Source: Leptospirales bacterium
GTDB lineage: Bacteria > Spirochaetota > Leptospiria > Leptospirales > Leptospiraceae
Length of the DNA: 64,000 nt
Direction of reading: 5' to 3'
Assembly (NCBI GenBank): GCA_013297885.1
Contig: JAAFIR010000007.1
Coordinates: forward strand, 1-64,000
Made by a program: the position numbers and the translations under genes. Positions within the stretch are counted from its first letter, which is position 1. Each line of letters starts with the position of its first letter. Below the pieces are notes generated by a model. It saw only the letters and a list, made by a program, of their open reading frames with translations, was not told where the DNA came from and ran no database searches. Positions 3,849-62,255 of the stretch are shown piece after piece.

Positions 3849-3984
3849 GGGCGAATTTTTTGTGTCGGAATTTTTAATAAAATGAAAGGTATGCCTGTTA
3901 TCTACTACACAAAAAAACTGTGCTTTCAACTTCGGTCAATTTTTTTTATACAAAAAAAATTGACCCCGTTTCAATCACTTTCGC
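3849..3984 (-). repeat. Dispersed modular hairpin element, copy A
   Basis: Read on the minus strand it has GCGAAAGTGATTGAAACGG, a perfect 32-base hairpin (3934-3965), GAAGTTGAAAGCACAG-T7, a second loop region and AAAAAATTCGCCC. It fills the gap after darG and supplies the first 30 codons of the frame running into the ISP remnant. The 200 bases between it and darG show nothing else. Confidence 0.85.
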
Positions 3985-4182
3985 ATTGTGTTGAGGGGAA
4001 TTTTGTTTTTGATTGAATTAATGTTTTTATTTCTATTCAACAAAGGAATCTTTAATAACATTTTAGATTGAGATATAAAACAGTTTTCAATATGCCACGA
4101 AAAACTTTTAAATTGATTTTATTTGGTTGTTTTTGATTATAAAATTCAGATCATCATAGATAAATTGAATTCAAGATAAAAA

Positions 4183-5217
4183 TTAGCTTTCTAATTCTGT
4201 CAATTTTTTAAATGCTATTTCAATAAATTTCGGTTTTGCAAAAAGCATTTTTTTTCTGTCACTCCAATTTTCAATGTAAGATTTGATTTCATCCAAATTA
4301 AATATTTTTTTTTCTGTTTTGATATAATCAATTGTTGATAATAATTCTAAAGCAAAATTTGAATAAAAACCAGTTAAAAATGATTTTGTTTTATTTGCAA
4401 TTTTTAAAAATTTAAGGTTTTCAGATTTATTCAGAAAATTTATAATATCCATTTCAGCATCAAAATTCAATTGTAAATCATCAAAAGCTTTTTTGTCCAT
4501 AGAACTAAATCCAGAAATATAACTTCCATTTAAAATAGATAAAACATGTCTAACTTTTCCAGAATAAGGTCCATAAAAGTTCTGAGTAAAATTTAATTTA
4601 AATTGCTCTTTTGCACCTAGTCTTTGAAGAAAATAAGAAACTTTTTCAGCAGCAAACTCCGAAACAAACTCTTCATTTCGAACTAAATCAAATAAAACAT
4701 TTAACAACATAGCCCTTGCAGGAGTTAATTTGACTCTTTCTGATTTTAAAATTTCTTTTATTAAAGTATCAGGTTCATAAATAATAATTTTACAATTTAA
4801 GTTTTTTAAATATTTTTCCATAATAGATTTTACTTTCTTCCATTCAAGTCCACCTTGACCTGACCCCAAAGGAGGTATTGCAACAGAAGTAAACTTTTTT
4901 TCAGAAATTAATTTTACTAAATCTTTTAAGCCTTGTTCAATATAGTCATACTCTGAAGGTTTTTTCCAATCAGTTTTAGTTGGGAAGTTTAGAATAATTT
5001 TTTTTCCAAAAACTAGTGATTCTTCTTCAGTTAAAAATAATTCACCAATTTTTATTTGTTCAGTCTCACAAGCTTTTTTATATAATTTAAAATTATCAGG
5101 AAAATTTTTTTTAAATTGTAAAGCAATTCCTTTTCCCATGACTCCAACAGTGTTAACAGTGTTGACTAAAACCTGAGCATCGGTATCAAATAGATTTCCT
5201 TCTTTATATTCTATCAT
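4183..5217 (-). CDS. darG: DarG antitoxin, macro domain DNA ADP-ribosylglycohydrolase
   Basis: The first 150 residues are a macro domain with GNLFDTDAQVLVNTVN, MGKGIALQFKKNFP and PPLGSGQGGLEW, the ADP-ribose-binding loops. The C-terminal half matches the DarT-binding region that DarG proteins carry. DarG removes ADP-ribose from thymidine in DNA and also binds DarT, so it neutralises the toxin in two ways (family knowledge). I chose the ATG at 5217, two bases past the darT stop, because the macro domain starts there; a GTG at 5238 in frame would add seven residues and overlap darT. Length of about 344 is normal for DarG. Confidence 0.93.
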   Translation of the reverse strand: MIEYKEGNLFDTDAQVLVNTVNTVGVMGKGIALQFKKNFPDNFKLYKKACETEQIKIGELFLTEEESLVFGKKIILNFPTKTDWKKPSEYDYIEQGLKDLVKLISEKKFTSVAIPPLGSGQGGLEWKKVKSIMEKYLKNLNCKIIIYEPDTLIKEILKSERVKLTPARAMLLNVLFDLVRNEEFVSEFAAEKVSYFLQRLGAKEQFKLNFTQNFYGPYSGKVRHVLSILNGSYISGFSSMDKKAFDDLQLNFDAEMDIINFLNKSENLKFLKIANKTKSFLTGFYSNFALELLSTIDYIKTEKKIFNLDEIKSYIENWSDRKKMLFAKPKFIEIAFKKLTELES

Positions 5218-5218
5218 T

Positions 5219-5836
5219 TTAAAAGAACCATTCCCCACTCGTTTTTATCATATTTTCTGACACTCCAAAATCAATTAATTTTTTCATTGAATTTTGACCT
5301 GAAACTAAAAAATTTATTATAGCTGAATAGGAAATATCTCCGTGAACTAAAAATTCAGCTGCTTTTCTCCTTTTCAAATCTGTATCATTTTCATTTTTCC
5401 AGTATCGGCTGTTAATAGCATTCCAATCTAAAATTTCATTTATCTCACCCACGTCTTCAGAACTATAACATTGACTAAAACTATTTCTTGCATGCCCGTC
5501 AAAAAAAACATAATCTAAATTAACGGAAATAATTTTCTGAATAGATGAGACCGAGTAAACGATATTTTCTTTTGAAACTTGCTTAACTCCATTATGACCA
5601 TTTTGAATTACATATAACATTGGCATTCTTGTCCCAAAATAAAAAGGAGTATATTCACTTATTTTTTTTCCATTACCCAAAATAATTTCGGTTCTGGTAT
5701 TAATCAAACTGGAATCACCGATTGAAATATAATCTTTATTTCTATTTTCTGAATCAACATGAGTAATTCCATTTTTAAGAATATGAGGAATATTCTCAAT
5801 ATGTGTTAATCGAAATAAATATATTTCTTTTTCCAC
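5219..5836 (-). CDS. darT: DarT toxin, DNA thymidine ADP-ribosyltransferase
   Basis: The 205-residue protein has the DarT (DUF4433) layout: an N-terminal FRLTHIENIPHIL start, the TPFYFGTRMPMLY core and the catalytic RKAAEFLVHGDIS motif with Glu161. DarT uses NAD to ADP-ribosylate thymidines in single-stranded DNA, which blocks replication; DarTG loci protect against phage. All expected motifs are intact, and the antitoxin gene follows immediately, so the pair is likely functional. The gene starts three bases from the ISP tail remnant upstream and shares its direction. Regulation was not visible. Confidence 0.94.
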   Translation of the reverse strand: MEKEIYLFRLTHIENIPHILKNGITHVDSENRNKDYISIGDSSLINTRTEIILGNGKKISEYTPFYFGTRMPMLYVIQNGHNGVKQVSKENIVYSVSSIQKIISVNLDYVFFDGHARNSFSQCYSSEDVGEINEILDWNAINSRYWKNENDTDLKRRKAAEFLVHGDISYSAIINFLVSGQNSMKKLIDFGVSENMIKTSGEWFF

Positions 5837-5839
5837 CCA

Positions 5840-6317
5840 TCACAACCCCAACCTCGGAATCTCACCCACTAACTTCACCGTTTCCAAACTCACTGCTATC
5901 ACTCTTTGAAAAAGCTCCAAGATATACTTTGGATTATTCTCTGTTTCGAGTGCATAGTCGTTTGCGTCATTTGTGATACCAGAATCTTTGTCTGTAGTTA
6001 CCGCATAACGCTCCATTATCCATTCAAGAGCAGGTTTTCCGTTTACTATATATTTGTATGCTTCTAGTGGAATTTCAGATAGAGTGATAAACTCGTTGTA
6101 AACAACTCTAGACTTATCTTCTTTTTTTGCAAATTTCATTTTACGAACATAATAGTGGTCAGGCTTCGTGACTTTGCCGTGTTCAATTTTAACTGGATAC
6201 AATTTTGCAGATTCATAGTTCAGATGAATTTTTGCAAGTTTGCGACCAATATCGGATAACGTCCAAAAATCGCTAACCGATACAGCACGAGGAATGCGAG
6301 GCAGCTCTTTAGAAAGA
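5840..6317 (-). pseudogene. C-terminal remnant of a type ISP restriction enzyme (copy 1)
   Basis: The last 120 residues form an open frame from a TTG at 6202, but the same frame is open back to about 6325 and encodes LSKELPRIPRAVSVSDFW, GRKLAKIHLNYE and then YKYIVNGKPALEWIMERY, the standard tail of type ISP restriction-methylation enzymes. Nothing of the helicase or methyltransferase core is left. The remnant begins at the very end of the zinc-ribbon helicase gene, and darT starts three bases after its stop. It is somewhat less AT-rich than its surroundings. An N-terminal ISP piece lies at 11979-12104, so the gene looks hollowed out. Confidence 0.8.
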
Positions 6318-6326
6318 TTGTCTTTA

Positions 6327-9300
6327 TTAAATTAGAAACTTTAAACCGGTTATATATATGAATTGTTTGGTTTGTTTGAAAGTAAGTTTATCAAAACCAA
6401 TTTTAAGAAGAATTTCTTTTAGTTCGTCTTCTCTATTCTCCCATTTTTGAAAAGGCTCTGCAATTATAACAACACCCATAATTTTTAGAATACGATATGC
6501 CTCATTAAGATAATCCTTATAATTTGATCCCATCAATGAAAGTGAAAAAACGGCAATGTCAATTGAGTTGTTTTCAAGGGGTAACTTAGAAATATCACAA
6601 GCTTTTACATTTGTATTAATCGCAACATGATCAAAAGCTAAAACTTTATTTGAAATTTCTTTTCGAAGTAAATCCTCTCCACAACCTAAATCTGCAACAA
6701 TCATTTCTTTACGAGTAATCATCTTACCGATTTCTACATAAGGAATTTCTTTCCAATCTTTTCTTCGTTCTTTGTAAAGTGTATGGTAATAGTACCAGTC
6801 TTCTGGATTTTCTTTTAGTTTTGTGTTAGTTGTCTTAGAATTCGAGATACTCCAAATACGATTAAGTTCTGAGAAATCTCCTAACGTTCTAGAAAGTTGT
6901 TCAACTATTTCAGGACGGAGTGGAAAAATTAAATCCTTTCTCTGGATTATAAAGATTTTGCCGTCTCCAATTCTTTCTTTCCAATCTCGGAGTGCCTCTT
7001 GCGATTTTTTAAAAAGTGTATCTAGAGACGGAATTTTTTTTGAAGGAACGACTCCATCAATGGCAGCATCAGCAAGAGTTTTTTTATTTCTTATTAGATG
7101 AATTCTCTGCATATCCCAAGACCATTCTTTTTCTTCTAATTGAATATAGACTTGAGGAATTAGAATTTCTACTTCCCCGAACTTAGAGCCTTGCCTATAG
7201 ATTCTTCCTTTTAACTGCGTATATTCTGAATCAGTCCAAGGGAGCGAAAGTATAATCATACGATTACATTTTTCTTGGAGTCCATCAACTCCAGTTCCAA
7301 TGGGACGTGAACCAATGAGTATATCGATTTCTCCGTTCAGGAATTTGTTCTTAGCTAATTCTCTTTCTTCTAAAGATTCCTCACCAGTATAAGTTCCAAA
7401 TTTGAAACCGCAGGATTTTACAAAGTCGATAATCGGTTCAATCATTCCAGTTGTATAATGAGTATATAAAATTACTCCTGATTGAAGATAATGATGAATT
7501 GCAGTCAATTTTTTAGGAAGTAAAATTTGTTCTGCTTTAATGTAATTGGTATTTGAAATAGAAAGTAATTCTTCAAGTAAATCTTTTCCATCTAATTTTA
7601 ACTTTGGAGTATTCTCACCTGTTAATTCTTTTATTTGAATTTCATATTTCGGAATATATCTTAATCCATTTAGACTTAGATGTTTAAAGGCTTCAAGCGC
7701 ATTCGCCAAGGTTTTCATTGTGTTAAAGTCTTTGTAGTCCTTGCCAGTCACCATTTCCAATAGAGACTTTGCTTCTGTGAGATTATTGATTACAGGAGTC
7801 GCACTCATTCCAAGAACATAAAGATTTTTATTCTCAGCAGCTCGACCGATAAGTCTCTTGATAGTTCCTCTACGAATACTTTCTTGTTTTTCTGTTCGCT
7901 GTTTTGCATTGTGAATTTCATCAATTGCAATAAAATCAATTTGGTTGTTATCCGTTAGGTCTTGAAATAGTTCTTCTGAATATCCTTGTTGGAATTTATC
8001 ATAATTTAGAATTAGATAATTCTTATTTTTACGCATAAACTTTTGTCCTGATTTATATTGAGTAAATACCTTACTATCAGGATAGGCTTGCAAAATATTT
8101 TTACTCAATTGTTCAATTGTAGAATTTAGACCTATGAGAAGTGTAAGCCTTGCATCAACACTTCGACTACTCAATATAAACGAAAGAGTTTTCCCCGCAC
8201 CCGTTCCCGACCAGTTGCCATAACGTTTATGCTTTAAGAGTCTAAAGACTGTTAACTTCTGCATGAGATTCGGCACATACGGAAATGAATATCCGTCAGG
8301 TGGTGAATACTTCAATACTTCGTTGTATTCATCAAAGAAATATTTTTGCAAAAGAGTGAAATTTATGCCACCGGTTTCTGTCTTAAACTTTTTAACAGAA
8401 AAATCTTTATTCAAAACTTGATTCCAAATCTTTCTCAGTTTATATTGAATCAAAAACTCAATCGTCTCCGCATCACAGGATGAAACCAAGTCATGGTCTA
8501 ACACATGCAGATCTTCATTAGTATCGTTTAGCGAGAGTAATTTCTTTTTTTTGTTTTCTGCTTCGGCAGATTCATAACTTTCTTCATTAGCATTTATTTC
8601 AATATCTTCTGTTTCTACTTCGTCTTGGTTCCAGTCTTCTTCTTGTATTTCCTGATTCGATGATAGCTCTTCGAATTCTATGCTTTCAGTTTCTGTTTCT
8701 AATCTTTCTTTAAGTGCTTTTAGAGTATTTTCTTTGTTATCCTCATCCGTGAAGACTAAGTCTCTGAATGTTTCAGGTAGTCTGCCTTGGTTGATTATCA
8801 TTTGTAACTCGACCGCATCCATTTGTAGAAGGTCTTGGTTTTCTATGGAGTGGAGGAATTCTAGGATTTTTGGTTTAGACCAGCCGAGGTTGCAAGTAGG
8901 GCAGCCTGTTCCACGTTTATGACTATCAGGTATTTGCAAAAACCCACCATGAATATTGCAAATAATTTTAACCGGAGTTCTTGCGTTTAAATATATTAAT
9001 TCCGAATAATCGTATTTATCTCCATGTATTTTTCTAAAGTCTTTTATGACTTCATCTTTGGTTAATAACATTTTACCAAAACACTTAGAACATCCTTGTC
9101 CTGATTTATGATTTCCAGGTGTTTGTAAGAATTCTCCATGCTCCGGACAGATAATTATTACAACTTCTAAATTATTTGCATAGACGACTTTAGAATAATC
9201 GTATTTGTCCCCGTGAACTTTTTTGAAATCATGAATAACTTGTTCGAATGAGAGTTTTATATTTCCACTGCATACAGGACAGCCAGCACCTTTTTTATGA

Positions 9301-10010
9301 GCATAAGGCAACTGTTCAAACTTGCCATGTTTTTTACATATTATGATTACTTTCGAATCAGTATTCTCATACTCTACTTTTGAATAATCATATTTCTTTC
9401 CATGTACTTTTCTAAAATCTTTAATCACTTCGTCAGTAGTTAATTTTACTCTTCCTCCGCATTTAGCACAGCCTTTTCCACTTTTATGTTCACTAGGAGT
9501 CTGTGAAAATTTACCATGTTCCGGACAAATGATAGTAACGGGTGTCATTCCTTTAATATAATTTACTTTGGAATAATCGTATTTATTCCCATGAACTTTT
9601 TTAAATTCCAGAATAATTTCTTCTGTGGTTAATCCACGACCCGCACATTTTGGACAACCAACACCACTCCTATGATGACTAACTCTTTGTAAAAAATCTC
9701 CATGCTCTCGACAAATAATTAGAATAGGCTTTGTTGTGTTAATATAGCTTGCTTTCGAATAATCGTATTTATCTCCATGAATTTTCTTGAAGTCTTGAAT
9801 AATTTCTTCTGTAGAAAATCCTCGACCAACACATTTAGGACAACCCACCCCGCTTTTATGCTTATTTGGTGTTAAAAGAAACTCACCATGTCTTTTACAA
9901 ATAATTTCAACTTTAGTTATAGCGTTTTCATACTCAACTTTCGAATAATCATACTTATTCAAGTGAACTTTTTTGAAATCTTTTATTACATCTTGGGTGG
10001 TTAGTTTCAT
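6327..10010 (-). CDS. SNF2-type helicase with six zinc ribbons and a C-terminal methyltransferase
   Basis: This 1227-residue protein has three parts. Residues 1-375 hold six tandem repeats of about 62 residues with consensus KVHGDKYDYSKV, then IIC-x2-HGxF and GxGCPxC, a DUF723-like zinc ribbon found in phage and endonuclease proteins. An acidic linker follows (about 430-500). A superfamily 2 helicase core spans about 580-1000: Walker A GTGAGKT near 602, DEIH near 697, GMSATP, and a helicase C part ending in LKGRIYRQGSKFGE. The last 150 residues are a class I methyltransferase (ADLGCGED near 1107, then VFSLSLMGSN) like Rrp8. Its start is one base from the KAP NTPase stop, so the two form an operon. 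A defence role is inferred from context; the substrate is unknown. Confidence 0.85.
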   Translation of the reverse strand: MKLTTQDVIKDFKKVHLNKYDYSKVEYENAITKVEIICKRHGEFLLTPNKHKSGVGCPKCVGRGFSTEEIIQDFKKIHGDKYDYSKASYINTTKPILIICREHGDFLQRVSHHRSGVGCPKCAGRGLTTEEIILEFKKVHGNKYDYSKVNYIKGMTPVTIICPEHGKFSQTPSEHKSGKGCAKCGGRVKLTTDEVIKDFRKVHGKKYDYSKVEYENTDSKVIIICKKHGKFEQLPYAHKKGAGCPVCSGNIKLSFEQVIHDFKKVHGDKYDYSKVVYANNLEVVIIICPEHGEFLQTPGNHKSGQGCSKCFGKMLLTKDEVIKDFRKIHGDKYDYSELIYLNARTPVKIICNIHGGFLQIPDSHKRGTGCPTCNLGWSKPKILEFLHSIENQDLLQMDAVELQMIINQGRLPETFRDLVFTDEDNKENTLKALKERLETETESIEFEELSSNQEIQEEDWNQDEVETEDIEINANEESYESAEAENKKKKLLSLNDTNEDLHVLDHDLVSSCDAETIEFLIQYKLRKIWNQVLNKDFSVKKFKTETGGINFTLLQKYFFDEYNEVLKYSPPDGYSFPYVPNLMQKLTVFRLLKHKRYGNWSGTGAGKTLSFILSSRSVDARLTLLIGLNSTIEQLSKNILQAYPDSKVFTQYKSGQKFMRKNKNYLILNYDKFQQGYSEELFQDLTDNNQIDFIAIDEIHNAKQRTEKQESIRRGTIKRLIGRAAENKNLYVLGMSATPVINNLTEAKSLLEMVTGKDYKDFNTMKTLANALEAFKHLSLNGLRYIPKYEIQIKELTGENTPKLKLDGKDLLEELLSISNTNYIKAEQILLPKKLTAIHHYLQSGVILYTHYTTGMIEPIIDFVKSCGFKFGTYTGEESLEERELAKNKFLNGEIDILIGSRPIGTGVDGLQEKCNRMIILSLPWTDSEYTQLKGRIYRQGSKFGEVEILIPQVYIQLEEKEWSWDMQRIHLIRNKKTLADAAIDGVVPSKKIPSLDTLFKKSQEALRDWKERIGDGKIFIIQRKDLIFPLRPEIVEQLSRTLGDFSELNRIWSISNSKTTNTKLKENPEDWYYYHTLYKERRKDWKEIPYVEIGKMITRKEMIVADLGCGEDLLRKEISNKVLAFDHVAINTNVKACDISKLPLENNSIDIAVFSLSLMGSNYKDYLNEAYRILKIMGVVIIAEPFQKWENREDELKEILLKIGFDKLTFKQTKQFIYITGLKFLI

Positions 10011-10011
10011 A

Positions 10012-11982
10012 TTATCGAGAAATCATTTCTTGCTTGTTCAAAGTTAGATTCGATTTATAAGATTGAAGTTTATCAATGCCATCGGTTAAAGCTATTATAA
10101 ATTGATTTAAACTTAAATTCTGAATTGGTTTATCCGAATTACCTTCAATTTTTAATTCGATGCCTTGTTTTAAATCCCGTAGAAATTCTAATTCAGTAAG
10201 AAGTTGACTTGCATTTCCATTATATCTATTTTTAAATAAATAGGATAAATACTGAATTTGTGGATTATCCAACTCAGTTATTACATTCAGGAATTCACTT
10301 GCATTGAAATAAGTAAAAATTGGAAATTCAGCATAAGTGTAATTCGGATTGTGATAGATTTCTAATTTAAACTGCTCAGGATTCTTTTCAATTAAGAATC
10401 CGAGTAATTTTTTTGCTTCTTCTTGATAGAAAGGCTTAGATTTTTTTTTAATTTGATATCTTAAGAATTTAAAGATTTTAAGAAAATCAGAATTATCCAT
10501 TTGAAAACGAAGACCATAAAATCCACATGAGCTATTTGCTAGCCAATTTGGATCAGATAGATAACCCTTTTTACCCATTTCTAGAATGTAATATTTCATT
10601 TCTTTCATGACTTGCTCTTTATTTTTCTTTCCTGGAAAAAGATTATTCTCTAGTAAATATAAATACGTTTTTAAAATTTCCAAAAATATTTCTGGATTTT
10701 TTATTTCATGTGCTTTAATTTCATTTTCAATAATCGTAAACAGCTTTAAAAAGTCTTCATCTGAAATATCTCTGAAGCTTTGTAGCTTTTTCCAAGCAGG
10801 GGTATTTTCTTTAAAGAAATACTCAGACTGAAGTAATTCCTTTGTTATCGCTTCCTTATTCGGAATACCATTTACAAAAAAATAAACCCAATTTTCCACT
10901 GAAATAATTAAACTATTTGAACTAATAAATGAGACACCGTATTTTCCAAAAACGGTATAAGTATTTTCTTCATTTGATACAGTTTTGTTTTTTTGTTCAT
11001 GAAAATTATCTATAAAATCCTTTTCCAGATTCCTTAATTTTTCTGGATTAAATCCTGCTTTAATTTCAAAGGAAAATATAAAAAATATTTGTATCAATTG
11101 TTGGATTAGATCATTCTTGCCCTTTACCTTATCATCTAAATGATTCCAAAAAATTCGCCAATCATAGAAAGTTTGCATTAGGATTCGAAGATTATCTTTT
11201 CCAAATGTGGTATATACTTCTTTTATTATATGAATATTATTTCTTATAACCGTATCTGGGAAACTGCCATTCTTCTCAGTATACTTTTTGATAAATGATT
11301 CTAGTGCTGAGTCAATATCTCCCTGAATACGAAAGGATTTACCAATTAATTTTTCTTTTATAATTTTGTATTTTGATTGATTCTGATTATTCTCGATCTT
11401 TGCTAAATGAGCATTATCCGCATTATTTTTCTGTTCAAAATCTTTTTGTAATTTCTCCGATTCATCAATTTCATCTTCATTAGCAATTATAATAACTCTT
11501 AATTTATTTTGCTCTACGTATTTATTTATATATCCAAGAGTTTCAGAAGGCGATAGCAAACATCTCTCTAGATCATCAAAGATAAGAGTTTTTGATACTA
11601 TATTATCGAATAAATCAATGACGTTTACTTTTGGTATAGAAGCTTCAATTTTAGTTCCATCAAACATTCCTTCCTTGATATCGAAACCAAATTTGCTGAT
11701 TCCTGAAAGTAAAACAGATGTTAATAGTTTCATTCCTTTAGATGCCATAACCGGATGTAAAACAGAAAAAATTTCAGAATCTATTTGCTCTGTCGATTTT
11801 AACCCATTCAATGATACATAGAGAAAAGAATCTTTTGTTTTTTCTTGCTTTTCTTCACGATAGTTTTCTATAAAATGAGTTTTTCCGCAACCCCAATTCC
11901 CAGTTAACATTACGGCAAAACCTGGCTCAATGTGGCTCACATAATCATCTAGAAACTGTTTTATATTTTCGTTACGTTTCAT
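10012..11982 (-). CDS. KAP family P-loop NTPase
   Basis: The 656-residue protein begins with a KAP-type NTPase domain: Walker A GNWGCGKT at 28-35 and Walker B LIFDDLER at 133-140, with the DDLER form typical of KAP proteins. The remaining 400 residues are helical with no motif that I recognise. No transmembrane pair is obvious in the NTPase, unlike some eukaryotic KAP proteins. The ATG overlaps the stop of a 41-residue ISP N-terminal remnant (ATGA), and the helicase gene follows after one base, so the three are cotranscribed. KAP NTPases occur in several phage-defence loci; that function here is inference. Confidence 0.85.
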   Translation of the reverse strand: MKRNENIKQFLDDYVSHIEPGFAVMLTGNWGCGKTHFIENYREEKQEKTKDSFLYVSLNGLKSTEQIDSEIFSVLHPVMASKGMKLLTSVLLSGISKFGFDIKEGMFDGTKIEASIPKVNVIDLFDNIVSKTLIFDDLERCLLSPSETLGYINKYVEQNKLRVIIIANEDEIDESEKLQKDFEQKNNADNAHLAKIENNQNQSKYKIIKEKLIGKSFRIQGDIDSALESFIKKYTEKNGSFPDTVIRNNIHIIKEVYTTFGKDNLRILMQTFYDWRIFWNHLDDKVKGKNDLIQQLIQIFFIFSFEIKAGFNPEKLRNLEKDFIDNFHEQKNKTVSNEENTYTVFGKYGVSFISSNSLIISVENWVYFFVNGIPNKEAITKELLQSEYFFKENTPAWKKLQSFRDISDEDFLKLFTIIENEIKAHEIKNPEIFLEILKTYLYLLENNLFPGKKNKEQVMKEMKYYILEMGKKGYLSDPNWLANSSCGFYGLRFQMDNSDFLKIFKFLRYQIKKKSKPFYQEEAKKLLGFLIEKNPEQFKLEIYHNPNYTYAEFPIFTYFNASEFLNVITELDNPQIQYLSYLFKNRYNGNASQLLTELEFLRDLKQGIELKIEGNSDKPIQNLSLNQFIIALTDGIDKLQSYKSNLTLNKQEMISR

Positions 11983-12600: not shown

Positions 12601-12604
12601 TAAA

Positions 12605-20957: not shown

Positions 20958-21064
20958 AGGACGAGTTTTTGCTTCGCCGAAAAGATGGCTGCAAAAATCA
21001 GGCTCTCGCTCTTGTCAAAAAATTTCATTCATAAATTTTTTGACATTGCTTCGATCCTTCTCGC
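20958..21064 (-). repeat. Dispersed modular hairpin element, copy B1
   Basis: Minus-strand copy right after the barrel gene, with GCGAGAAGGATCGAAGC, a GTCAA-type hairpin (21013-21045) and GGCGAAGCAAAAACTCGTCC. It is nearly identical to copy G (39184-39289). Together with B2 it fills the 360-base gap before the peroxidase gene. Confidence 0.85.
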
Positions 21065-21106
21065 ATGGTTAAACCGTATTTAAAAAAGTTTTCCAATTCT
21101 AGCATT

Positions 21107-21231
21107 AGTGATTGAAGCGGTGTCAAAATTTTTTATATAAAAAATTTTGACAAGAGCAGAAAGCACGACTTTTGAGTTTAGAAAAAATAAAATTCTTTTA
21201 TTCAAAAAAAATATATTCCTAAACTCAAAAG
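21107..21231 (+). repeat. Dispersed modular hairpin element, copy B2
   Basis: Plus-strand copy whose 5-prime end faces that of B1, 43 bases away. It has GTGATTGAAGCGG, a perfect 32-base palindromic hairpin (21121-21152), GAGCAGAAAGCACGA, and a second stem CTTTTGAGTTTAG (21169-21181) pairing with 21219-21231. The closing TTCGCCC block is missing. Confidence 0.82.
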
Positions 21232-21312
21232 GAATGCTCAATCATACCAATTAATATTTTAATTTTACATTTTTAATTGATTAAATCCTAGTCTAAAACT
21301 CAGGAGTATTAA

Positions 21313-24055: not shown

Positions 24056-24287
24056 GCGAGAGTGATTGAAGCGTTTCTTAAAACAGTGGGTCTCGACCCC
24101 AGGTCTGACCCACTGCTTTAAGAAGTAGCATAGCTTGGCTTGGTGCTTCAAAGAAGCAGGGGGGTCATAACACGGTTTTTCGTAAATGAAGAATTAAAAA
24201 TTAAAAATGCTTTTTCAAATTTTTAATTCCAAATTTTTAATTCTTCATTTTTTCTGCAGAGCAGAAAAGAAAAACTCGCCCAAAAAA
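24056..24287 (+). repeat. Dispersed modular hairpin element, copy C
   Basis: This is the longest copy. It has GCGAGAGTGATTGAAGCG, a hairpin whose inner stem is ACAGTGGGTC with GACCCACTG (24074-24124), an inserted stretch, ACACGGTTTTT, a large AT hairpin from AATGAAGAATTAAAAATT (24185-24250) and AAAAACTCGCCC. It fills most of the 386-base gap between the SH3 lipoprotein and thiolase genes. Confidence 0.85.
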
Positions 24288-29024: not shown

Positions 29025-29104
29025 TCTTAAACTCCTAACTTTAATTTAATTTAATCCTAAAAAATTTCAAGATTTTTTTAATCTAATTTTTATATTATTT
29101 TTTT

Positions 29105-29223
29105 GGCGAATTTTTTTATTGTAGTTTACACAAAGGCTAGTAAACTACAATAAAAAAACCGGGCTTTTCGTTCCAATCTTTGTTCGTTCCTCACAAAGGA
29201 TTTACACTTCAATCCCTTTTCGC
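29105..29223 (-). repeat. Dispersed modular hairpin element, copy D
   Basis: Minus-strand copy in the gap between two divergent genes. The second stem is perfect: TTTTTTTATTGTAGTTTAC (29111-29129) pairs with 29140-29158. The GCGAAAAGGGATTGAAG block and AAGCCCGG block are both conserved. The first hairpin is weak here. Confidence 0.85.
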
Positions 29224-35270: not shown

Positions 35271-35390
35271 GCAAAAGGGATTGAAGCGGAAATCCTTTTG
35301 TCTTCTTAGAATATTTATTTAGCAAAATAGATTCCAAAAGATTGAAGTGGAAAGCCCGGTTTTTGCAAAGCAAAAATTTGCCAAAAAAAC
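35271..35390 (+). repeat. Dispersed modular hairpin element, copy E
   Basis: Plus-strand copy upstream of sufB with GCAAAAGGGATTGAAGCGG, a weak first hairpin (ATCCTTTTG with CAAAAGAT), GAAGTGGAAAGCCCGG, a perfect TTTTTGC-AAA-GCAAAAA stem and TTTGCC. It ends 46 bases before the sufB start, so it would be part of the 5-prime region or just upstream of the promoter. Confidence 0.82.
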
Positions 35391-36824: not shown

Positions 36825-36964
36825 AGGGCGAATTTTTAAAGTAGGCAAAAATAATTTAGATAAAAAAATCTATTTGTCCAATACCTACTTTAAAAAACAA
36901 GCTCTCGCTTTGGTCAAAAAATTTCATAAACGAAATTTTTTGACCCCGCTTCGATCTTTTTCGC
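36825..36964 (-). repeat. Dispersed modular hairpin element, copy F
   Basis: Minus-strand copy starting nine bases after sufB. It has AGCGAAAAAGATCGAAGCGG, a GGTCAAAAAATTTC-type hairpin (36911-36945), a long second stem using TTTTTAAAGTAGG (36833-36845) with 36884-36896, and AAAATTCGCCC. Confidence 0.85.
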
Positions 36965-39183: not shown

Positions 39184-39289
39184 AGGCGAGTTTTTGCTTC
39201 GCCGAAAAGATGGCTGCAAAAATCAGGCTCTTGCTCTTGTCAAAAAATTTCATTTAGAAATTTTTTGACATTGCTTCGATCCTTCTCGC
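39184..39289 (-). repeat. Dispersed modular hairpin element, copy G
   Basis: Minus-strand copy between convergent genes and nearly identical to B1. The 5-prime block and the first half of its hairpin encode the last eleven residues and the stop codon of the adenylate cyclase (39254). Confidence 0.87.
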
Positions 39290-40555
39290 TAGTACATCTA
39301 AAAATTTCTCATTAGCATCAATTCCATTTGAGGAATATTCTGACTTTATTGAATCCAAAAAATACATTGAAATTTCACCTTTATTCTTAGCTCCAATTTT
39401 TCCTCGAGGTGTACAGATAAAATATTCTGAGATTTGATGATATGTTTCTTCAGAAATATTAATCTTTCCAAGTTCAGAAGATGATTCCATTCTACTTGCA
39501 GTGTTTACAGTATCTCCCCAAATATCGTATGAAAATTTTTTCTTTCCAATTACTCCTGCAATTAAAGGACCTGAGTGAAAACCAATTCGAATATCCCAAA
39601 AAGGAATATTTAATTCTTGTTTTAATTTTTTGATTTGGTTAAATGCTTCTCTCATTTTAATAGCAGCAAGAGCCATATCAATTGAAGGATTTTTTTTCTC
39701 TACAGGCACACCTGAGGCACACATATAAGAATCACCAATTGTTTTTATTTTTTCAATTTTAAACTGATCTATAATTTGATCAAAAAAAGAAAAACACAAA
39801 TCTAGTTCTTTAATTATATCTTTCGGATTCATATGTTCAGAAATTTTAGTAAACCCAGAAAAATCAGTAAATAGAACTGTTGCATTTTTAAAATAAAGAG
39901 GTTCAACAGTATCTTTTTTTTTCAGTTCATTTGCAACTGCTATAGGTAAAATATTATGTAAAAGTCTATTTGATTCAGCAATAGATTCTTCAAGCCTTGA
40001 TTCAAATACTGTATTTACTAATTCATGGTATTCTTTACTTTGCTCTAAAACAATTTTCCAAGCTTCATCATAATTTAATTCAGGAATTTTTAAAATCATT
40101 TCTCTTAAAATTTCTCGCATATTATTTTCCACACGAATAAAAAACGCAATGGAAAAACCATTTTGCCTATAATCAAGTGCTTTAAACGAATTGGTTGTAG
40201 TTTCTGTAAAAATTTTTTTATTTTCTACATTTGGATCACATAAATCAAAAAGCCTATATAAAAATAAACGATTGTAAGTGTGAAAAGAATAATCTTCATA
40301 TTTATAAATAAATTTATTTCTAAAAGCCCATTCTTTAATTAAATTAAATTCAGGAATTTCTAATTTTTCAATTTCAGGAAGTCTATTTAATAATTCATTT
40401 TTTAATTCCTGGTTTACTTCTTTTCCAGATTTTCCACTATCAACACCACTTGTTTGAGAAAATTCAGTTTCTTTTGTGAGTTCAATGTTGATATGTTTTA
40501 AAAAATGCCGAGCAATTTCTAAAGCAATTATTTTTCTTAATTCAATTTCTTCCAT
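39254..40555 (-). CDS. Adenylate/guanylate cyclase, class III
   Basis: The C-terminal 200 residues are a class III cyclase catalytic domain: VLFTDFSGFTKISEHM with the first metal Asp, KTIGDSYMCASGVP with the second, and IRIGFHSGPLIAGVIG, YDIWGDTVNTASRME. The N-terminal 220 residues are helical with no known sensor and no membrane segment, so it should be a soluble enzyme making cyclic AMP. The last residues, ARRIEAMSKNF, are encoded inside repeat copy G, so the element has set the present C-terminus. It faces the porin gene convergently. Confidence 0.9.
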   Translation of the reverse strand: MEEIELRKIIALEIARHFLKHINIELTKETEFSQTSGVDSGKSGKEVNQELKNELLNRLPEIEKLEIPEFNLIKEWAFRNKFIYKYEDYSFHTYNRLFLYRLFDLCDPNVENKKIFTETTTNSFKALDYRQNGFSIAFFIRVENNMREILREMILKIPELNYDEAWKIVLEQSKEYHELVNTVFESRLEESIAESNRLLHNILPIAVANELKKKDTVEPLYFKNATVLFTDFSGFTKISEHMNPKDIIKELDLCFSFFDQIIDQFKIEKIKTIGDSYMCASGVPVEKKNPSIDMALAAIKMREAFNQIKKLKQELNIPFWDIRIGFHSGPLIAGVIGKKKFSYDIWGDTVNTASRMESSSELGKINISEETYHQISEYFICTPRGKIGAKNKGEISMYFLDSIKSEYSSNGIDANEKFLDVLARRIEAMSKNF

Positions 40556-41004: not shown

Positions 41005-41128
41005 TGGGTGAGTTTTTGCGATGCAAAAAACGGGCTTTCCCCTTTTGTCAAAAATTTGTCCACCCTGCTGCTTTGAAGCACCTATCTGGGATATACAAAT
41101 TTTTGACATCGGGTCAATCCCTCTCACT
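41005..41128 (-). repeat. Dispersed modular hairpin element, copy H
   Basis: Minus-strand copy with GTGAGAGGGATTGACCC, a TGTCAAAAATTTGTAT hairpin interrupted by a GC-richer insert, GGAAAGCCCG-T6 and a TTTTTTGCATCGCAAAAA stem, then CTCACCC. It lies between two minus-strand genes. Confidence 0.78.
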
Positions 41129-42861: not shown

Positions 42862-42955
42862 GAGAAAGGGATTAAAACGGGGTCAATATTTTTTGTATAA
42901 AAAATATTGACCGAAGTTGAAAGCCCGGTTTTTCCCTTTGGGAAAAATTCTCCCT
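42862..42955 (+). repeat. Dispersed modular hairpin element, copy I
   Basis: Compact plus-strand copy between the lipoprotein and tRNA-Gly: GAGAAAGGGATTAAAACGG, a perfect 32-base hairpin (42881-42912), GAAGTTGAAAGCCCGG-T5, a CCCTTTGGG mini-stem and AAAAATTCTCCC. It differs from copy A in the hairpin by a compensated base pair. Confidence 0.87.
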
Positions 42956-43092: not shown

Positions 43093-43163
43093 GCGGGCGT
43101 GGTGTAACGGTAGCACAACAGCCTTCCAAGCTTTTAGAGAGGGTTCGAGTCCCTTCGCCCGCT
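43093..43163 (+). tRNA. tRNA-Gly (TCC)
   Basis: The 71-base cloverleaf has acceptor GCGGGCG with CGCCCGC, a D-arm with GTAACGGTAG, the anticodon loop CTTCCAA (anticodon TCC) and the T-arm GGTTCGAGTCC. CCA is not encoded. Confidence 0.95.
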
Positions 43164-43198
43164 AAAGTTTTTTCTTCAAATTACGAACAGTATTACAC

Positions 43199-43540
43199 GG
43201 GGGCGACTTTGGTTTCGACTGTTGTATGCTAAGGTTCAGTGGCATGTAGAGGTGAGAGTCCTACTTAAAAACTTTCAAACAATAAACGCTAACAACGAAT
43301 TAGCTTTAGCAGCTTAGGCTACTAACGGGAAGCAAACTTTACACATTCGGTGAGTTGCCTACTGTCATTAAACGAATGTCTTATGTTCACGTTTTCGGCT
43401 TGGTGAACCTGAGTATTAAAGACGATAGGGTTTGAATCCTTTTTGTGGGTAAAACAAACTAGAAAATTTAAACACAAAATAAACATGTAGAGGCTTTGCT
43501 AACGCGCAATAGGACGTGGGTTCGAATCCCACCGTCTCCA
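43199..43540 (+). ncRNA. ssrA: tmRNA (ssrA)
   Basis: The 5-prime end GGGGGCGACTTTGGTTTCGA and the 3-prime end GGACGTGGGTTCGAATCCCA plus CCGTCTCCA form the tRNA-like part; GGGGGCG pairs with CGTCTCC using G-U pairs. The tag frame at 43288-43317 encodes ANNELALAA followed by TAG, a normal proteolysis tag ending in LAA-type residues. It frees stalled ribosomes and tags the incomplete protein. It is 35 bases after tRNA-Gly. Confidence 0.97.
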
Positions 43541-43548
43541 AAAACTTT

Positions 43549-44064
43549 ATGCTAAAAATATTTTTTTTCTTTTTCTACTTTTCTTTAACTGCACAAGAAA
43601 TTCCTGTTTCAATTGGTTCTGTTTATAAAAATAAAAATGATGTCCTTGATTCTGATGTTGAAAAAATATTTTTACTTTCTAAAAAATTAATTTTATGTAC
43701 AATTGAAAAAAATAAAAAATGTTTTTTGGAATCTATATCAAAACAAAAAGGTGTGTATGTCGACCTCAAAGCTATTTGGACTTATAAAGAAGTAGAATCT
43801 GAAATTACAAAACAAGATTCCTATTTTGATATATTCTTTTTTGATTCTGAAAAATTAAAATCCTACACTAAAAATGAAAATTCTAAAACTGTTAAAGAAA
43901 TTTTAGAATCAGCTGATGAAATTTTTTTGGATATTTATTTTGATTCTATCCAAAATGCTGAAATCAATATTAGATTTAAAAATGGAAACAAATTAGAAAA
44001 AGATTTGAACAATCCTTATTTTATTAAAGAAAAAAATAAATGGTTCTTGTTTCGATTTTTTTAG
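43549..44064 (+). CDS. Hypothetical secreted protein
   Basis: I place the start at the ATG at 43549, eight bases after tmRNA; the frame extends into tmRNA but that part is RNA gene. A signal peptide (KIFFFFFYFSLTAQ, cut before QE) is followed by about 155 polar residues with no known domain. There is no good ribosome site. The stop TAG is the first base triplet of repeat copy J, so the element touches the gene end. Confidence 0.6.
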   Translation: MLKIFFFFFYFSLTAQEIPVSIGSVYKNKNDVLDSDVEKIFLLSKKLILCTIEKNKKCFLESISKQKGVYVDLKAIWTYKEVESEITKQDSYFDIFFFDSEKLKSYTKNENSKTVKEILESADEIFLDIYFDSIQNAEINIRFKNGNKLEKDLNNPYFIKEKNKWFLFRFF

Positions 44065-44251
44065 GGCGAATTTTTTTGTTGTAGAGACAATCCGTAAGAC
44101 AATGGGTTTCAACCCACTGAGCAGCTGGTAGCTACCAGCTGTCTAAATTACATAATAAAGTTCTCTACAACAAAAAAACCGTGCTTTACTCTACTTCCTT
44201 CAACCACACCCTTAAGGGTGTGGTTGAAGGAAACGCTTCAATCACTTTCGC
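44064..44251 (-). repeat. Dispersed modular hairpin element, copy J
   Basis: Minus-strand copy with the first stem a perfect 38-base loopless palindrome (44195-44232; half TTCCTTCAACCACACCCTT) and a second region closed by TTGTTGTAGAGA with its complement near 44162. Inside it are two nested hairpins: ATGGGTT-TC-AACCCACT and the palindrome CAGCTGGTAGCTACCAGCTG. The GCGAAAGTGATTGAAGCG and TTCGCCC blocks are intact. Confidence 0.87.
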
Positions 44252-54593: not shown

Positions 54594-54722
54594 GCGAAAG
54601 GGATTGAAACGGTTCTGAGACAGTGGGTTGTAACCCACTGTCTCAGAAGTAGTTGAAAGCCCGGTTTTTTATTGTAGAGACATTGTATGCAACGTCTTTA
54701 CAATAAAAAATTCGCCCAAAAA
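54594..54722 (+). repeat. Dispersed modular hairpin element, copy K
   Basis: The clearest copy: GCGAAAGGGATTGAAACGG, a perfect 36-base hairpin (54613-54648) with the stem ACAGTGGGTT, GTAGTTGAAAGCCCGG-T6, a second stem ATTGTAGAGAC with GTCTTTACAAT, and AAAAAATTCGCCC. Together with the related unit at 54811 it fills the 404-base gap between divergent genes. Confidence 0.9.
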
Positions 54723-54810
54723 CATATTCAGAATATTTATCTTTGCACAAATATTGTCGATAATTAATTATATTTTGAAACTGGAGTTCCTTTTCAGCCA
54801 TTTTAGGCTT

Positions 54811-54892: not shown

Positions 54893-54923
54893 TGTATTCA
54901 AAAATTTTTATAGAGGTGAACAC

Positions 54924-56670: not shown

Positions 56671-56697
56671 GTTTTTAAAAAAATTTTTTTTAAACTC
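56669..56697. terminator. AT palindrome between convergent genes
   Basis: GAGTTTTTAAAAAAA and its near-complement TTTTTTTTAAACTC span the stop region of both converging genes and could end transcripts from either side. Confidence 0.5.
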
Positions 56698-57252: not shown

Positions 57253-57428
57253 ATATTATTATAGATTTTGTGTGACTAATGACAACAGATTATTTATTCT
57301 CAATTTTTACAAAAGCCTTAAGATTCATTTCTATTTGACAATCTTTTTTCAATTGTATTCAATTTTGATACGAAATCTAGAAAAAAATAGGATTGAGAAA
57401 AAAGAAAAAATAAAACAAAATATTTAAT

Positions 57429-57860
57429 TTAAACTTTTTTCCATTCAAAAAATTCAATATTTCTATTTTGGCTGTTAAAAATTACACCAACTAAATAAAT
57501 TTTATTACATTCCATCATATCATATTTTTCATAGTATTTTTTGGTTTTAATTTGCTCTATTGGATTTTTTGATTCAGCTTGTTCAGAAACTTTAAATTCA
57601 AACACAAAAATTTTATCTTGATAAAATACTGTCATATCAACTTGACCAAGATTTGTAATTTCTTCAGCCCGAACATCTAAACCAATAGCTGAAAAATAAG
57701 TATAAAAAATTGCTGAGTAATAACCCTCATATTTTTCTAAATAATTTTTTCTATACCAATCATTTGGAATAGAAGCAAAAAATGAATAAAAAATTTTTTT
57801 AATGGATTTAAAATTTATTTCTTCTAATGCTTCAATCAAATTGGATATTTTTTTCCCCAA
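57429..57860 (-). pseudogene. C-terminal part of an AAA-ATPase-like/DUF1703 gene
   Basis: These 143 residues match the end of the intact gene at 62430-63974: YRKNYLEKYEGYYSAIFYT, the nuclease-like core GQVDMTVFYQDKIFVFEFKV and IEQIKTKKYYEKYD. This is the PD-(D/E)XK nuclease-like DUF1703 domain with its Asp and ExK residues. It has no start of its own and joins the N-terminal piece at a deletion that also shifts the frame. About 290 central residues are missing. Confidence 0.75.
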
Positions 57861-58087
57861 TCCCAGTTTTGCTCAAGAAATAGTCCTTTAAATAAAACTT
57901 TATTTCCTTCAAAAGCTTCTTTTAAAGTATCTAAAAAAAGACTTTTTCCAAATCGCCTTGGTCTAGATAAAAAGATATAACTGGCAGTGTTTACTAATTC
58001 AGAAACTAATTTTGTTTTATCAATATAATAATAATTCTCTTCAATAATTTTAGAAAAAGTTTGAATGCCAATTGGAAGTTTTTTCAA
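57836..58087 (-). pseudogene. N-terminal part of an AAA-ATPase-like/DUF1703 gene
   Basis: The 83 residues start KKLPIGIQTFSKIIEENYYY and contain YIFLSRPRRFGKSLFLDTL, the Walker A-like motif of the AAA-ATPase_like (PF09820) family. The frame ends at the deletion junction near 57840 (KYPI then stop). With the piece downstream it is the decayed paralogue of the gene at 62430. It begins two bases after the alpha-galactosidase stop. Confidence 0.75.
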
Positions 58088-58088
58088 A

Positions 58089-59987: not shown

Positions 59988-60029
59988 TTTGTCCTGTATC
60001 TTGTAAAAATAATTCTGTGGAATAGGGTA

Positions 60030-60671
60030 ATGAGTCAACCAAAACAATTAAAAATAACACCAAAAGTTTTTCAAATGGATTTAGATGATGAAAGCTTTCA
60101 AATTTACGAAAAAGAAACTAGAGTAGCGGTTGATTGTGAAATGATGGGGTTAAACCCAAAAAGAGATAGACTTTGTGTTGTTCAGTTAGCTAGTCCAAAT
60201 AATTATTATTCATTAATTCAGATTTTGCCCGATCAAAAAGAAGCTCCCAACTTAAAAAAACTTTTTGAAAACACTGAGGTCACAAAAATTTTTCATTTTG
60301 CTAGAATGGATTATTTATTTTTAAAAACATTTTTAGATATAAATGTAAACCCAATTTTCTGTACAAAAATTGCAAGTAAACTTGCAAGAACTTATACTGA
60401 TAAACATGGGTTAAAAGAATTAATCCGTGAATTTTTTGATGTGAACATGGATAAAAAAAACCAAAGTTCTGATTGGGGAAAAAAAATATTATCCAAAGAT
60501 CAAATTGAATATGCTTGTGAAGATGTGAGATATTTGGTTTCACTGGAACATTTATTAACAGAAATTTTAATTCGCGAAAAAAGATATGAAACTGCACAAA
60601 AATGTTTTTCTTTTTTACCAACTCAAATTGAACTAGATAAATTAGAACTCAAGGACATTTTGGAACATTGA
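60030..60671 (+). CDS. rnd: Ribonuclease D-like 3-prime exonuclease
   Basis: The 213 residues form one DEDDy exonuclease domain: motif I VAVDCEMMGLNPKRD (Asp and Glu), motif II IFHFARMDYLFL, motif III IEYACEDVRYLVSL (Tyr and Asp). RNase D trims tRNA and other RNA 3-prime ends. The HRDC domains of longer RNase D proteins are absent, so it is the short form. Its stop overlaps the radA start. Confidence 0.9.
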   Translation: MSQPKQLKITPKVFQMDLDDESFQIYEKETRVAVDCEMMGLNPKRDRLCVVQLASPNNYYSLIQILPDQKEAPNLKKLFENTEVTKIFHFARMDYLFLKTFLDINVNPIFCTKIASKLARTYTDKHGLKELIREFFDVNMDKKNQSSDWGKKILSKDQIEYACEDVRYLVSLEHLLTEILIREKRYETAQKCFSFLPTQIELDKLELKDILEH

Positions 60672-62029
60672 AAAAACCTCAGAAATTATTTATCTGCAAT
60701 TCTTGTGGAGCAGAATATTCTAGATGGGCTGGCAAATGTGAAACATGTGATTCTTGGAACACAATTTCAGAACAAGAAGTAAGTTCTGAAAAATTTTCCA
60801 CAGCAAAAAAATTCAAAATAGAAAATTATTCCAAACCAAAATCTATTTCTGAAATTGAAGAAGAAAAATTAATTCGACTAAGCACTGGATTTAATGAACT
60901 TGATTTGGTGCTTGGTGGTGGAATTGTTCCAGGAAGTTTAACTTTAATTGGTGGAGAACCTGGGGTTGGTAAATCCACTTTAATTTTGGAGATAGCTAAA
61001 AATATTTCTAAACATAAAAAAGTTTTGTATGTTTCAGGAGAAGAATCTGCTTCTCAAATTTCAATTCGTGCAAGAAGAATGAATATTGATTCCAAAAATA
61101 TTTTGCTTTCAAGTGAAGTGTATGTAGAAAAAATTTCAGCGATGATAAGTGGAGAAAATCCAGATTTAGTTTTTATTGACTCAATTCAAACTATCTCAAA
61201 AGAAAGTTTACCAAACCAACAAGGCTCAGTCACTCAATTAAGGGAATGTACTTCTTCCCTTTTGGAAGTTGCAAAAAAATCAAACATCCCCATTTTTTTA
61301 ATCGGTCATATCACAAAAGAAGGAAGTATTGCAGGACCAAAACTATTAGAACATATTGTGGACACTGTGCTTTATTTTGATTCAGACAAACTTCATTATT
61401 ATCGTTTGCTTCGTGGAATTAAAAATCGTTTTGGAGCAGTTGGTGATATTGCTGTATTTGAAATGAAATCAGATGGTTTAAAAGAAGTGATCGACAAACA
61501 TAATTTATTTATTTCAGAAAATCGTGATAATCGAATTGGCTCTTGTATTTCAGTTATCATGGAAGGCTCACGCTCATTATCAGTTGAAGTGCAAGCTCTT
61601 GTATCACGCACCACATTTTCTCAAGCAAGAAGAACAGCAGAAGGCTTAGACACAAAGCGTTTGATTTTAATTGCTGCAGTTCTCGAAAAATTTATGGGAC
61701 TGAAGATGATTGAATGTGATGTGTTTTGTAATTTAGCTGGTGGACTAGAAATTGATGAGCCATCTCTTGATTTAGCAATTTCTGGATCTATTTTATCCTC
61801 TTACCTAGAAAGACCAATTCAAAACGAAGTTGCTCTGATTGGTGAAATAGGTTTGTCGGGAGAAATTCGTCCTGTAAGTTTTATTTCGACAAGACTCAAA
61901 GAACTCACAAGTCTTGGAATCAAAAAAGTTTTTTTACCAAAAAGCAATTTAAAAGAAATCAAAAATCAATTTAAAGAATTAAATCTAATCGAAATAGAAA
62001 AAATTAACGAACTAGAAAAAATTTTTTAG
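60668..62029 (+). CDS. radA: DNA repair protein RadA
   Basis: RadA is a RecA-like ATPase that extends recombination intermediates. The 453 residues have an N-terminal zinc finger (FICNSCGAEYSRWAGKCETC), Walker A GGEPGVGKST near 100, the RadA-specific KNRFG motif, and a C-terminal Lon-like domain with LDLAISGSILSSYL. The start is TTG, overlapping the rnd stop. A dispersed repeat lies 47 bases after the stop. Confidence 0.95.
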   Translation: MKKPQKLFICNSCGAEYSRWAGKCETCDSWNTISEQEVSSEKFSTAKKFKIENYSKPKSISEIEEEKLIRLSTGFNELDLVLGGGIVPGSLTLIGGEPGVGKSTLILEIAKNISKHKKVLYVSGEESASQISIRARRMNIDSKNILLSSEVYVEKISAMISGENPDLVFIDSIQTISKESLPNQQGSVTQLRECTSSLLEVAKKSNIPIFLIGHITKEGSIAGPKLLEHIVDTVLYFDSDKLHYYRLLRGIKNRFGAVGDIAVFEMKSDGLKEVIDKHNLFISENRDNRIGSCISVIMEGSRSLSVEVQALVSRTTFSQARRTAEGLDTKRLILIAAVLEKFMGLKMIECDVFCNLAGGLEIDEPSLDLAISGSILSSYLERPIQNEVALIGEIGLSGEIRPVSFISTRLKELTSLGIKKVFLPKSNLKEIKNQFKELNLIEIEKINELEKIF

Positions 62030-62076
62030 AAAAAATTATTTGTGCTCCCTTAAATGGAATGCCTAAACTTTTAGAA

Positions 62077-62255
62077 GGGCGAATTTTTCTTTTTTTGCAA
62101 AGCAAAAAAAAATGTACAATTAAAAATTAATAATTTGGAATTCAAAAAATTTTTAGTATCAATTTTTAATTCCACATTTACGAAAAAACACGCTCGCCTC
62201 TTCGGTCAAAAAAATTGTATTCACAATTTTTTGACCACGAGTTGATCGTTTTCGC
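62077..62255 (-). repeat. Dispersed modular hairpin element, copy L
   Basis: Minus-strand copy after radA with GCGAAAACGATCAACTCG, a GGTCAAAAAATTGT-type hairpin (62204-62236), GAGGCGAGCGTG-T6, an AT-rich stretch with an ATTAAAAATTG inverted repeat, a TTTTTTTGCTTTGCAAAAAA stem and AAAAATTCGCCC. The remaining 170 bases to the next gene show no other feature. Confidence 0.82.

Follow-up and report, generated by a model that had tools for sequence, protein, structure and literature searches.

Thirteen dispersed repeats lie in the 64,000-nucleotide stretch at the start of contig JAAFIR010000007.1 of a Leptospirales bacterium (assembly GCA_013297885.1; the whole stretch is hereafter the window). 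Each copy's first and last conserved blocks together make up a closing helix, P1 (for example GCGAA/TTCGC), a pairing that the original prediction of a modular double-hairpin element had missed. Because these blocks pair with each other, each copy is predicted from its sequence to fold as a three-way junction formed by P1, a helix P2 that carries hairpin 1, and P3, which is hairpin 2. We think that this junction probably marks a mobile DNA element that is non-autonomous and moved in trans, and in which selection keeps the fold of the single strand.

Elements are about 70-230 nt long and contain three helices. Read on the sense strand, a copy consists of the 5′ strand of P1 (5 nt), 1-2 nt that are usually A, P2a (3 nt), the successive bases A, T, x, G, A/T and A, and P2b; it continues with arm 1, the partner strand P2b′, a stretch of purines ending in y-A-G, P2a′, 1-3 nt, P3 (arm 2) and the 3′ strand of P1, usually followed by CC. 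P1 takes many forms in the window genome (GCGAA/TTCGC, GCGAT/ATCGC, GCAAA/TTTGC, GCGAG/CTCGC, GAGTT/AACTC, GCGTT/AACGC and others) and in other genomes (GCGCA/TGCGC, GCGTT/AACGC, GCGTG/CACGC, GCGCC/GGCGC, GCGCG/CGCGC, GTGCA/TGCAC and GCGTA/TACGC), as does P2a (GGG/CCC, GTG/CAC, AGG/CCT, ACG/CGT, GAG/CTC and GCG/CGC). Some P1 strands (GCGTT..AACGC) recall an integron attC site, a candidate that we set aside: P1 elsewhere reads GCGCA/TGCGC or GCAAA/TTTGC, and attC has the opposite order of GTT and AAC.

P1 covaries within the window genome and across Bacteroidota and Spirochaetota. Among 76 distinct window-genome copies selected with the Rfam model RF01705 (86 matches, reduced to 81 by the loss of one without a 5′ anchor and four without P3), all five P1 positions pair in 60 (shuffle mean 20.4, maximum 31; 5,000 shuffles). 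Across phyla, they pair at 36 of 48 distinct sites (shuffle mean 13.5, maximum 24), which were picked by a 23-mer of P2 only (81 sites, reduced to 68 by seven without a 3′ block, five without P3 and one too short). For this test the 3′ strand was located from P3 alone and a slip of one base was allowed, likewise in the shuffles; with the register fixed, the counts are 52 of 76 and 18 of 48. In the 76 window-genome copies, P2a is fully paired in 73 (shuffle mean 30.3, maximum 45), and the x-y pair, which occurs as T-A, A-T or C-G, is Watson-Crick in 74 (shuffle mean 65, maximum 72); x-y is G-C at two loci in other genomes (L340 and L323). The internal loop of P2 is near-invariant (A.G in 75/76, G.A in 76/76, and A.G or A.A in 76/76), and P2b forms standard pairs in 151 of 152 cells. 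In a 33-row alignment (A2), both-sided changes are seen in 14 of 17 pairs and 99.5% of cells are paired; shuffling lowers the covariation score from 0.577 to 0.157, and slid versions reach no more than 0.093. The scanner used to select these rows already requires P1, P2a, the x-y pair and P3, leaving only helix 3 (P2b) free of selection; its pairs are GC 19, AU 5, UA 4, CG 1 and GU 1, and CG 29 and UA 4. The alignment derives from 44 candidates, from which two near-identical ones were omitted and nine further rows dropped (eight misaligned, and L383 with a shifted start); one row was trimmed by one base for register.

The element is abundant. A covariance model (R1) built from 33 copies, all of the window genome, recovers the 13 window copies at E ≤ 6e-5, with their parts in the order originally claimed and with the same split of eight minus-strand and five plus-strand copies. 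Seven of these are R1 training rows; the remaining six, marked in the table below, have E-values from 2e-16 to 6e-5. Within the window, the P2 motif GATTGAAGCGG occurs eight times with at most one mismatch (0.41 expected; maximum 3 in 100 shuffles). In 400 kb of the same genome, sampled at positions fixed beforehand, R1 finds 42 more copies at E ≤ 1e-3, and extrapolation suggests about 480 copies per 4.6-Mb genome, far from the scarcity that would have spoken against a dispersed family; copy density in the window is about twice that of the sample.

Copies lie mainly between genes, in either orientation. The scanner is weak on its own (56 matches, against 68 in three shuffled sets, or about 23 per set), and therefore we applied a P1 filter and used R1 for counts. 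In the 464 kb of window plus sample, 81% of which is filled by open reading frames (ORFs) as defined by a simple rule without a gene caller, 35 of 38 scanner-defined elements fall between ORFs, two at sequence edges and one mostly inside an ORF. The earlier placement of copies between genes or at gene ends holds, with two overlaps in the window: copy 1 overlaps a weak ORF (3609..3929), and copy 8 takes in the final codons of a cyclase-like ORF (39254..40555). The 35 elements in gaps divide into 22 tandem, 7 divergent and 6 convergent, compared with 99, 44 and 21 of the 164 gaps of at least 100 nt, and those in tandem gaps run 12 in the sense of the genes and 10 against it. Nothing here points to a role tied to the direction of transcription. 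These counts bear on the proposal that selection has spread the repeat as an intrinsic terminator or a stabiliser of transcript ends, which would account for P2 often ending in GCCCGG-TTTTT in the window genome and for the position of several copies at most about 30 nt from a stop codon. We consider it improbable: copies do not keep to running with and after genes, the T-run is missing from many Bacteroidota copies, where P3 starts with CC, and only one of seven copies between 35000 and 54999 was flagged as terminator-like (7 sites in all, 5.9 expected).

Matches are far more numerous in the window genome than in three congeners. R1 matches 104 of 104 scored candidates in the window genome and 6, 8 and 10 of 104 in the congeners; with the Rfam model, which is independent, the counts are 64 of 64 and 1, 3 and 2 of 64; R1 matches were found in 7 of 39 genomes, the window genome included. 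The number of copies, their indifference to strand and their excess over congeners are what one would expect of a mobile element. We therefore favour the first half of the earlier alternative, 'REP-like mobile unit or structured RNA', though not as the repetitive extragenic palindrome (REP) of the resident REP-associated tyrosine transposase (RAYT). Nineteen full-length pairs are at least 85% similar; setting aside a group of 15 pairs discussed below, the matches of the other four start 0, 0, 2 and 7 bases ahead of P1 and extend 2-12 bases beyond P1′. One of these four pairs is formed by window copies 2 and 8, which are 96% identical; their match opens with the first base of P1 and stops 5-6 bases beyond the 3′ strand of that helix. 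A 13-nt 5′ context near TTTTTCAAYACTA is frequent at copies.

The arms of the junction are exchanged wholesale while the core fold stays. Clustering the arms of 128 elements gave three main types of arm 1 (GTCAAA.., GGAAATCC.. and GCGTTTC..) and many of arm 2, with 140 of 163 clusters being singletons. Two copies (C30:88 and C56:43) show no difference in the 126 nt leading up to arm 2; there, a longer hairpin has taken the place of another, enclosed by the same outer pairs. Several copies also contain a second dispersed unit (AGCTTGGCT..GCTTC..GAAGCAGGGNGG or similar), either nested in the loop or inserted in P2 (see table).

The arms also bear on whether the repeat is a REP or REPIN moved by a RAYT, a Y1 tyrosine transposase. 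The window genome has one PF01797 (RAYT-like) gene (L116:4172-5450, contig C42), and an element copy lies about 560 nt upstream of it. The suggestion that a RAYT gene might be flanked by the element's own blocks did not hold: the flanks of this gene carry AGTGGGT..ACCCACT-type palindromes, unlike the element. That pattern has 12 matches in the 464 kb, six of them inside elements, which make up 1.57% of the bases. By our sorting by eye, five of six clean 18-nt palindromes and a seventh with a 16-nt loop lie inside elements (six of seven; binomial 1e-10), and the remaining five matches, which have long loops or are poor, lie outside. Because RAYT-type palindromes are concentrated inside elements, the arms seem to harbour nested copies of the resident REP-like palindrome, which suggests that the hairpins are favoured or tolerated insertion sites. 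As high-copy intergenic hairpins the elements do resemble REPs, and a PF01797 match is present in six of the eight motif-rich genomes examined; however, none was found in motif-rich G070 (82 Flavo-1 matches) or G065 (140 of 150 scored), and the element is much longer than a REP. With different palindromes at the gene and these two genomes lacking a match, we rejected a RAYT as the general mover, and movement of the element as a REP, already disfavoured, is very improbable.

Half of the element has been described before. The original prediction knew of no named family with this layout, which stands for the full arrangement with P1 and P3 and fails for the hairpin-1 half: that half is RF01705 (Flavo-1) of Rfam, so a described RNA family is matched in part, over P2 only. 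Flavo-1 and the element share the P2 sequence GATTGAAGCGG..GCGGAAAGC with its purine-rich internal loop, whereas the Rfam model (76 nt; P2 plus 8 nt on each side) lacks P1, P3 and the CC tail. In Flavobacterium, the top-scoring copies of Flavo-1 are shorter, their P2a being CCG/CGG or CTG/CAG and their flanks different; the window form adds two helices. RF01705 scores 2 of the 13 window copies above its gathering score (42 bits) and 3 below, and leaves 8 unreported at E up to 5; the type of hairpin 1 seems to decide the score. Genome-wide it gives at least 86 matches, 71 above the gathering cut-off, with 150 of 2,029 candidates scored.

Rfam classes Flavo-1 as a small RNA (sRNA), and a section of one review places it among the most abundant sRNA families without stating a function there (PMC9029176). 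A structured non-coding RNA family, acting as RNA in trans or in cis, is thus a main rival, supported by that classification, by the covariation and by the conserved purine-rich internal loop. Passages of a study of F. psychrophilum add that several 5′ transcript regions coincide with Flavo-1 matches, yet also that matches are sense or antisense indistinctly and that many fall outside transcribed regions (PMC9723704). About 480 estimated copies without relation to gene strand, and hairpin arms that are freely replaced, argue further against it, and on balance we think an RNA family unlikely, though it deserves serious weight.

The element ranges beyond the Bacteroidetes, the distribution printed for Flavo-1 in the passages of two papers (PMC2864571, PMC9029176). 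Similar sequences had been anticipated in other phyla, and the P2 23-mer was matched, among the matches listed, in Flavobacterium, Sediminibacterium, Chitinophaga, Cytophagaceae, Hymenobacteraceae and Bacteroidales, and also in several metagenome-assembled genomes (MAGs) of Spirochaetales and Treponema and in one Thermodesulfovibrionia MAG. P1 and P3 are present at most of these cross-phylum loci, and R1 has matches in 11 of 11 such genomes. In three spirochaete MAGs R1 matches 108, 130 and 133 of 150 scored candidates, and in three Flavobacterium genomes 3, 5 and 14. Under strict filters RF01705 has a match in 25 of 296 genomes drawn from the phylum, the window genome included; a plasmid collection gave one weak partial match only. 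At four loci (L314, L316, L324 and L411) of G065 and G066, two other spirochaete MAGs, several copies have an extra hairpin, GGCTGGTCG..CTGCTCGCCC, directly 5′ of P1. Three further genomes (G200, G298 and G086; loci L417-L422), which we take to be Treponema-like, carry the element every few kilobases, in a single orientation per stretch, in the leaders of ORFs, many of which we presume to encode RHS proteins; their copies have P1 CGGAC/GTCCG, and the Rfam RNAs TD-1 and TD-2 lie nearby.

In one Spirochaetales MAG (G061, JAISQU), the junction forms the middle of miniature inverted-repeat transposable elements (MITEs) that have inverted repeats and are bordered by 3-bp duplications; the end of an IS5-type transposase gene there matches. 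Copies with sharp borders consist of 3-bp TNA flanks, the terminal inverted repeat (TIR) GAGCCTGTT, the junction and AACAGGCTC; the 3-bp flanks are identical at seven of eight loci with both ends seen (eight of nine rows, one locus having been read on both strands). A second family joins the junction to other ends and shows 4-bp repeats at four of seven loci. At one contig end, the right end of the first family is preceded by the coding sequence for the C-terminal 54 residues of a DDE_Tnp_1_2 transposase (32.4 bits against a cut-off of 29.2). The TNA duplication presumably fits the IS1031 group of IS5. These families support another main rival, overlapping our own explanation, in which the element is an ordinary DDE-transposon MITE whose ends have decayed in the window genome. 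Nevertheless, the window genome lacks inverted ends, its four close pairs stop near P1, the junction rather than the ends is common across phyla, and 9 of 30 fetched G061 loci, as judged by eye, carry neither pair of ends. We regard this reading, too, as rather unlikely.

How might a bare junction move? In the explanation that we favour, the selected feature would be the fold of one strand, comprising the 5-bp closing helix P1 with its CC tail, P2 with the purine loop and arm 1, and P3 with arm 2. An enzyme supplied in trans would recognise this folded core, probably as single-stranded DNA, and since only the core would be read, the arms would be free to change as copies are scattered into intergenic DNA. 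More broadly, the junction could represent a class of mobile DNA in which a single-stranded three-way junction is the unit of recognition and movement, without fixed ends, with exchangeable arms and a structure-specific enzyme, spread over Bacteroidota and Spirochaetota and serving as a preferred landing place for other palindromes, RAYT-type REPs among them; we offer this wider proposal tentatively and hold it to be doubtful. Should Flavo-1 prove to be the core of a mobile DNA junction, many loci annotated as 'sRNA' would be repeats, and one could begin to look for the enzyme that reads the junction. Arm exchange provides a natural experiment on what the core requires.

A number of observations weigh against this explanation. 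To our knowledge, no cognate enzyme for a bare junction is known, and an enzyme acting in trans in the window genome is a candidate only. Terminal inverted repeats in the window genome do not exceed chance (mean longest 6.34, against 6.37 after shuffling; n=102). No empty site was found among the fetched sequences of that genome: of five raw joined-flank matches, one is the element's own locus, and each of the others is either a short or a weak match (72-79%, E 6e-4 to 5e-5). The best congener matches to window genes are 71-80% identical and lie on separate contigs; since congeners do not preserve the gene order around the window and empty sites were not seen, no insertion in the window genome can be dated. 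Orientation shows no lagging-strand bias in a comparison with GC skew (16 to 13, 26 ambiguous). In the near-identical group that supplies 15 of the 19 close pairs, similarity continues upstream, and there the unit is therefore probably larger than the junction. The purine-rich loop has an RNA-like look. Over P1, P2a and P2b, 14 cells are G-U and 4 A-C (two-sided binomial P 0.03), weak evidence that the sense strand is the folded one. Minimum-energy folds contain all three helices in 73 of 123 sense and 49 of 123 antisense sequences as DNA, and in 50 and 46 of 123 as RNA; by these models the fold is plausible, yet energy alone does not force it. Finally, in the Treponema-like genomes the element lies within ORFs with the frame preserved (22 of 23 copies open in one frame across it, 23 of 23 lengths multiples of 3), a different life style.

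The G-U excess also touches on a SINE-like retro-element, in which a folded RNA would be copied back into DNA. Dispersed copies with an RNA-like conserved fold would suit such an origin, but the modest bias fits RNA and single-stranded DNA equally, and we rate it as highly unlikely.

About nine near-identical copies (L067:1900-3700, L099-L104, L110 and L083), most of them close to a contig end, have as much as a few hundred upstream bases in common, and several carry GCATAACTAT repeats. At L067, a DUF1564 protein (PF07600, 40.3 bits) is encoded just upstream of the element, a neighbour that suggests a larger mobile unit.

Copies of the element in the window, with two further window-genome (G000) copies that carry the second dispersed unit; 'non-training' marks copies outside the R1 training set.
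Copy	Position	Strand	P1	P2a	Other features	Model results
1	3849..3984	-	GCGAA/TTCGC	GTG/CAC		R1 71.6 bits, non-training
2	20959..21064	-	GCGAG/CTCGT	AGG/CCT	ATCGA/GAGAG	
3	21102..21239	+	GCATT/AATGC		long arm 2; tail TC	R1 54.1 bits over 21102-21197, non-training
4	24056..24281	+	GCGAG/CTCGC		AGTGGGT..ACCCACT palindrome in arm 1; another insert in P2; carries second dispersed unit	R1 29.8 bits, non-training
5	29104..29223	-	GCGAA/TTCGC		2-nt linker	Flavo-1 score above gathering cut-off
6	35271..35383	+	GCAAA/TTTGC			Flavo-1 score above gathering cut-off
7	36826..36964	-		AAG/CTT	ATCGA/GAGAG	non-training
8	39184..39289	-	GCGAG/CTCGC	AGG/CCT		
9	41006..41127	-	GTGAG/CTCAC		second dispersed unit nested in arm 1	
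10	42862..42954	+	GAGAA/TTCTC			R1 79.6 bits
11	44064..44251	-			RAYT-type palindrome in arm 2	non-training
12	54594..54717	+			RAYT-type palindrome at apex of arm 1	
13	62077..62255	-	GCGAA/TTCGC	ACG/CGT	P2b CTC/GAG	R1 40.5 bits, non-training
	G000:C13:59269				carries second dispersed unit	
	G000:C42:5380				carries second dispersed unit	

The end that R1 draws for copy 3 is wrong: the true 3′ strand of P1, AATGC, lies at 21233-21237 and is followed by TC. Copy 6 stands about 53 nt upstream of a sufB-like ORF (start 35437). Elsewhere in the window, positions 8893-10017 hold six tandem repeats of 186-189 bp, 62-71% similar to a reference copy, within ORF 6327..10010, and a tRNA followed by a tmRNA occupies 43093-43543, with an ORF call (43516..44064) that begins within the 3′ end of the tmRNA.

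The P2 half was already known as Flavo-1. The titles, abstract openings and passages returned by a search of the open-licence literature contained nothing on the element beyond reports of Flavo-1; none of them describes the three-way junction, how far the element has been amplified, its occurrence in Spirochaetota, its carriage by MITEs or the palindromes nested in its arms. The passages of a REP-finder paper that tabulates Flavobacterium and Leptospira genomes do not reveal whether the element is included (PMC12306157).

The element has parallels with several known systems. Like REPs and REPINs, it is high-copy, intergenic, palindromic and indifferent to strand. As described in passages of one report, however, REPs are short palindromes headed by GT(A/G)G, two of which flank each RAYT (PMC2817692), whereas the element is a junction of about 70-230 nt with three helices and does not flank a RAYT. 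MITEs are characterized, in the passages of another, as short, AT-rich, intergenic and able to fold (PMC10969869). The element shares these traits in the window genome and has real TIRs and target-site duplications in G061; by contrast, window-genome copies lack TIRs, and the core rather than the ends is conserved. In the BOX elements of pneumococcus, as in this element, conserved modular blocks surround variable parts. Rickettsia palindromic elements resemble the Treponema-like copies that are kept in frame inside ORFs, and differ in this from the copies of the window genome, which are intergenic.

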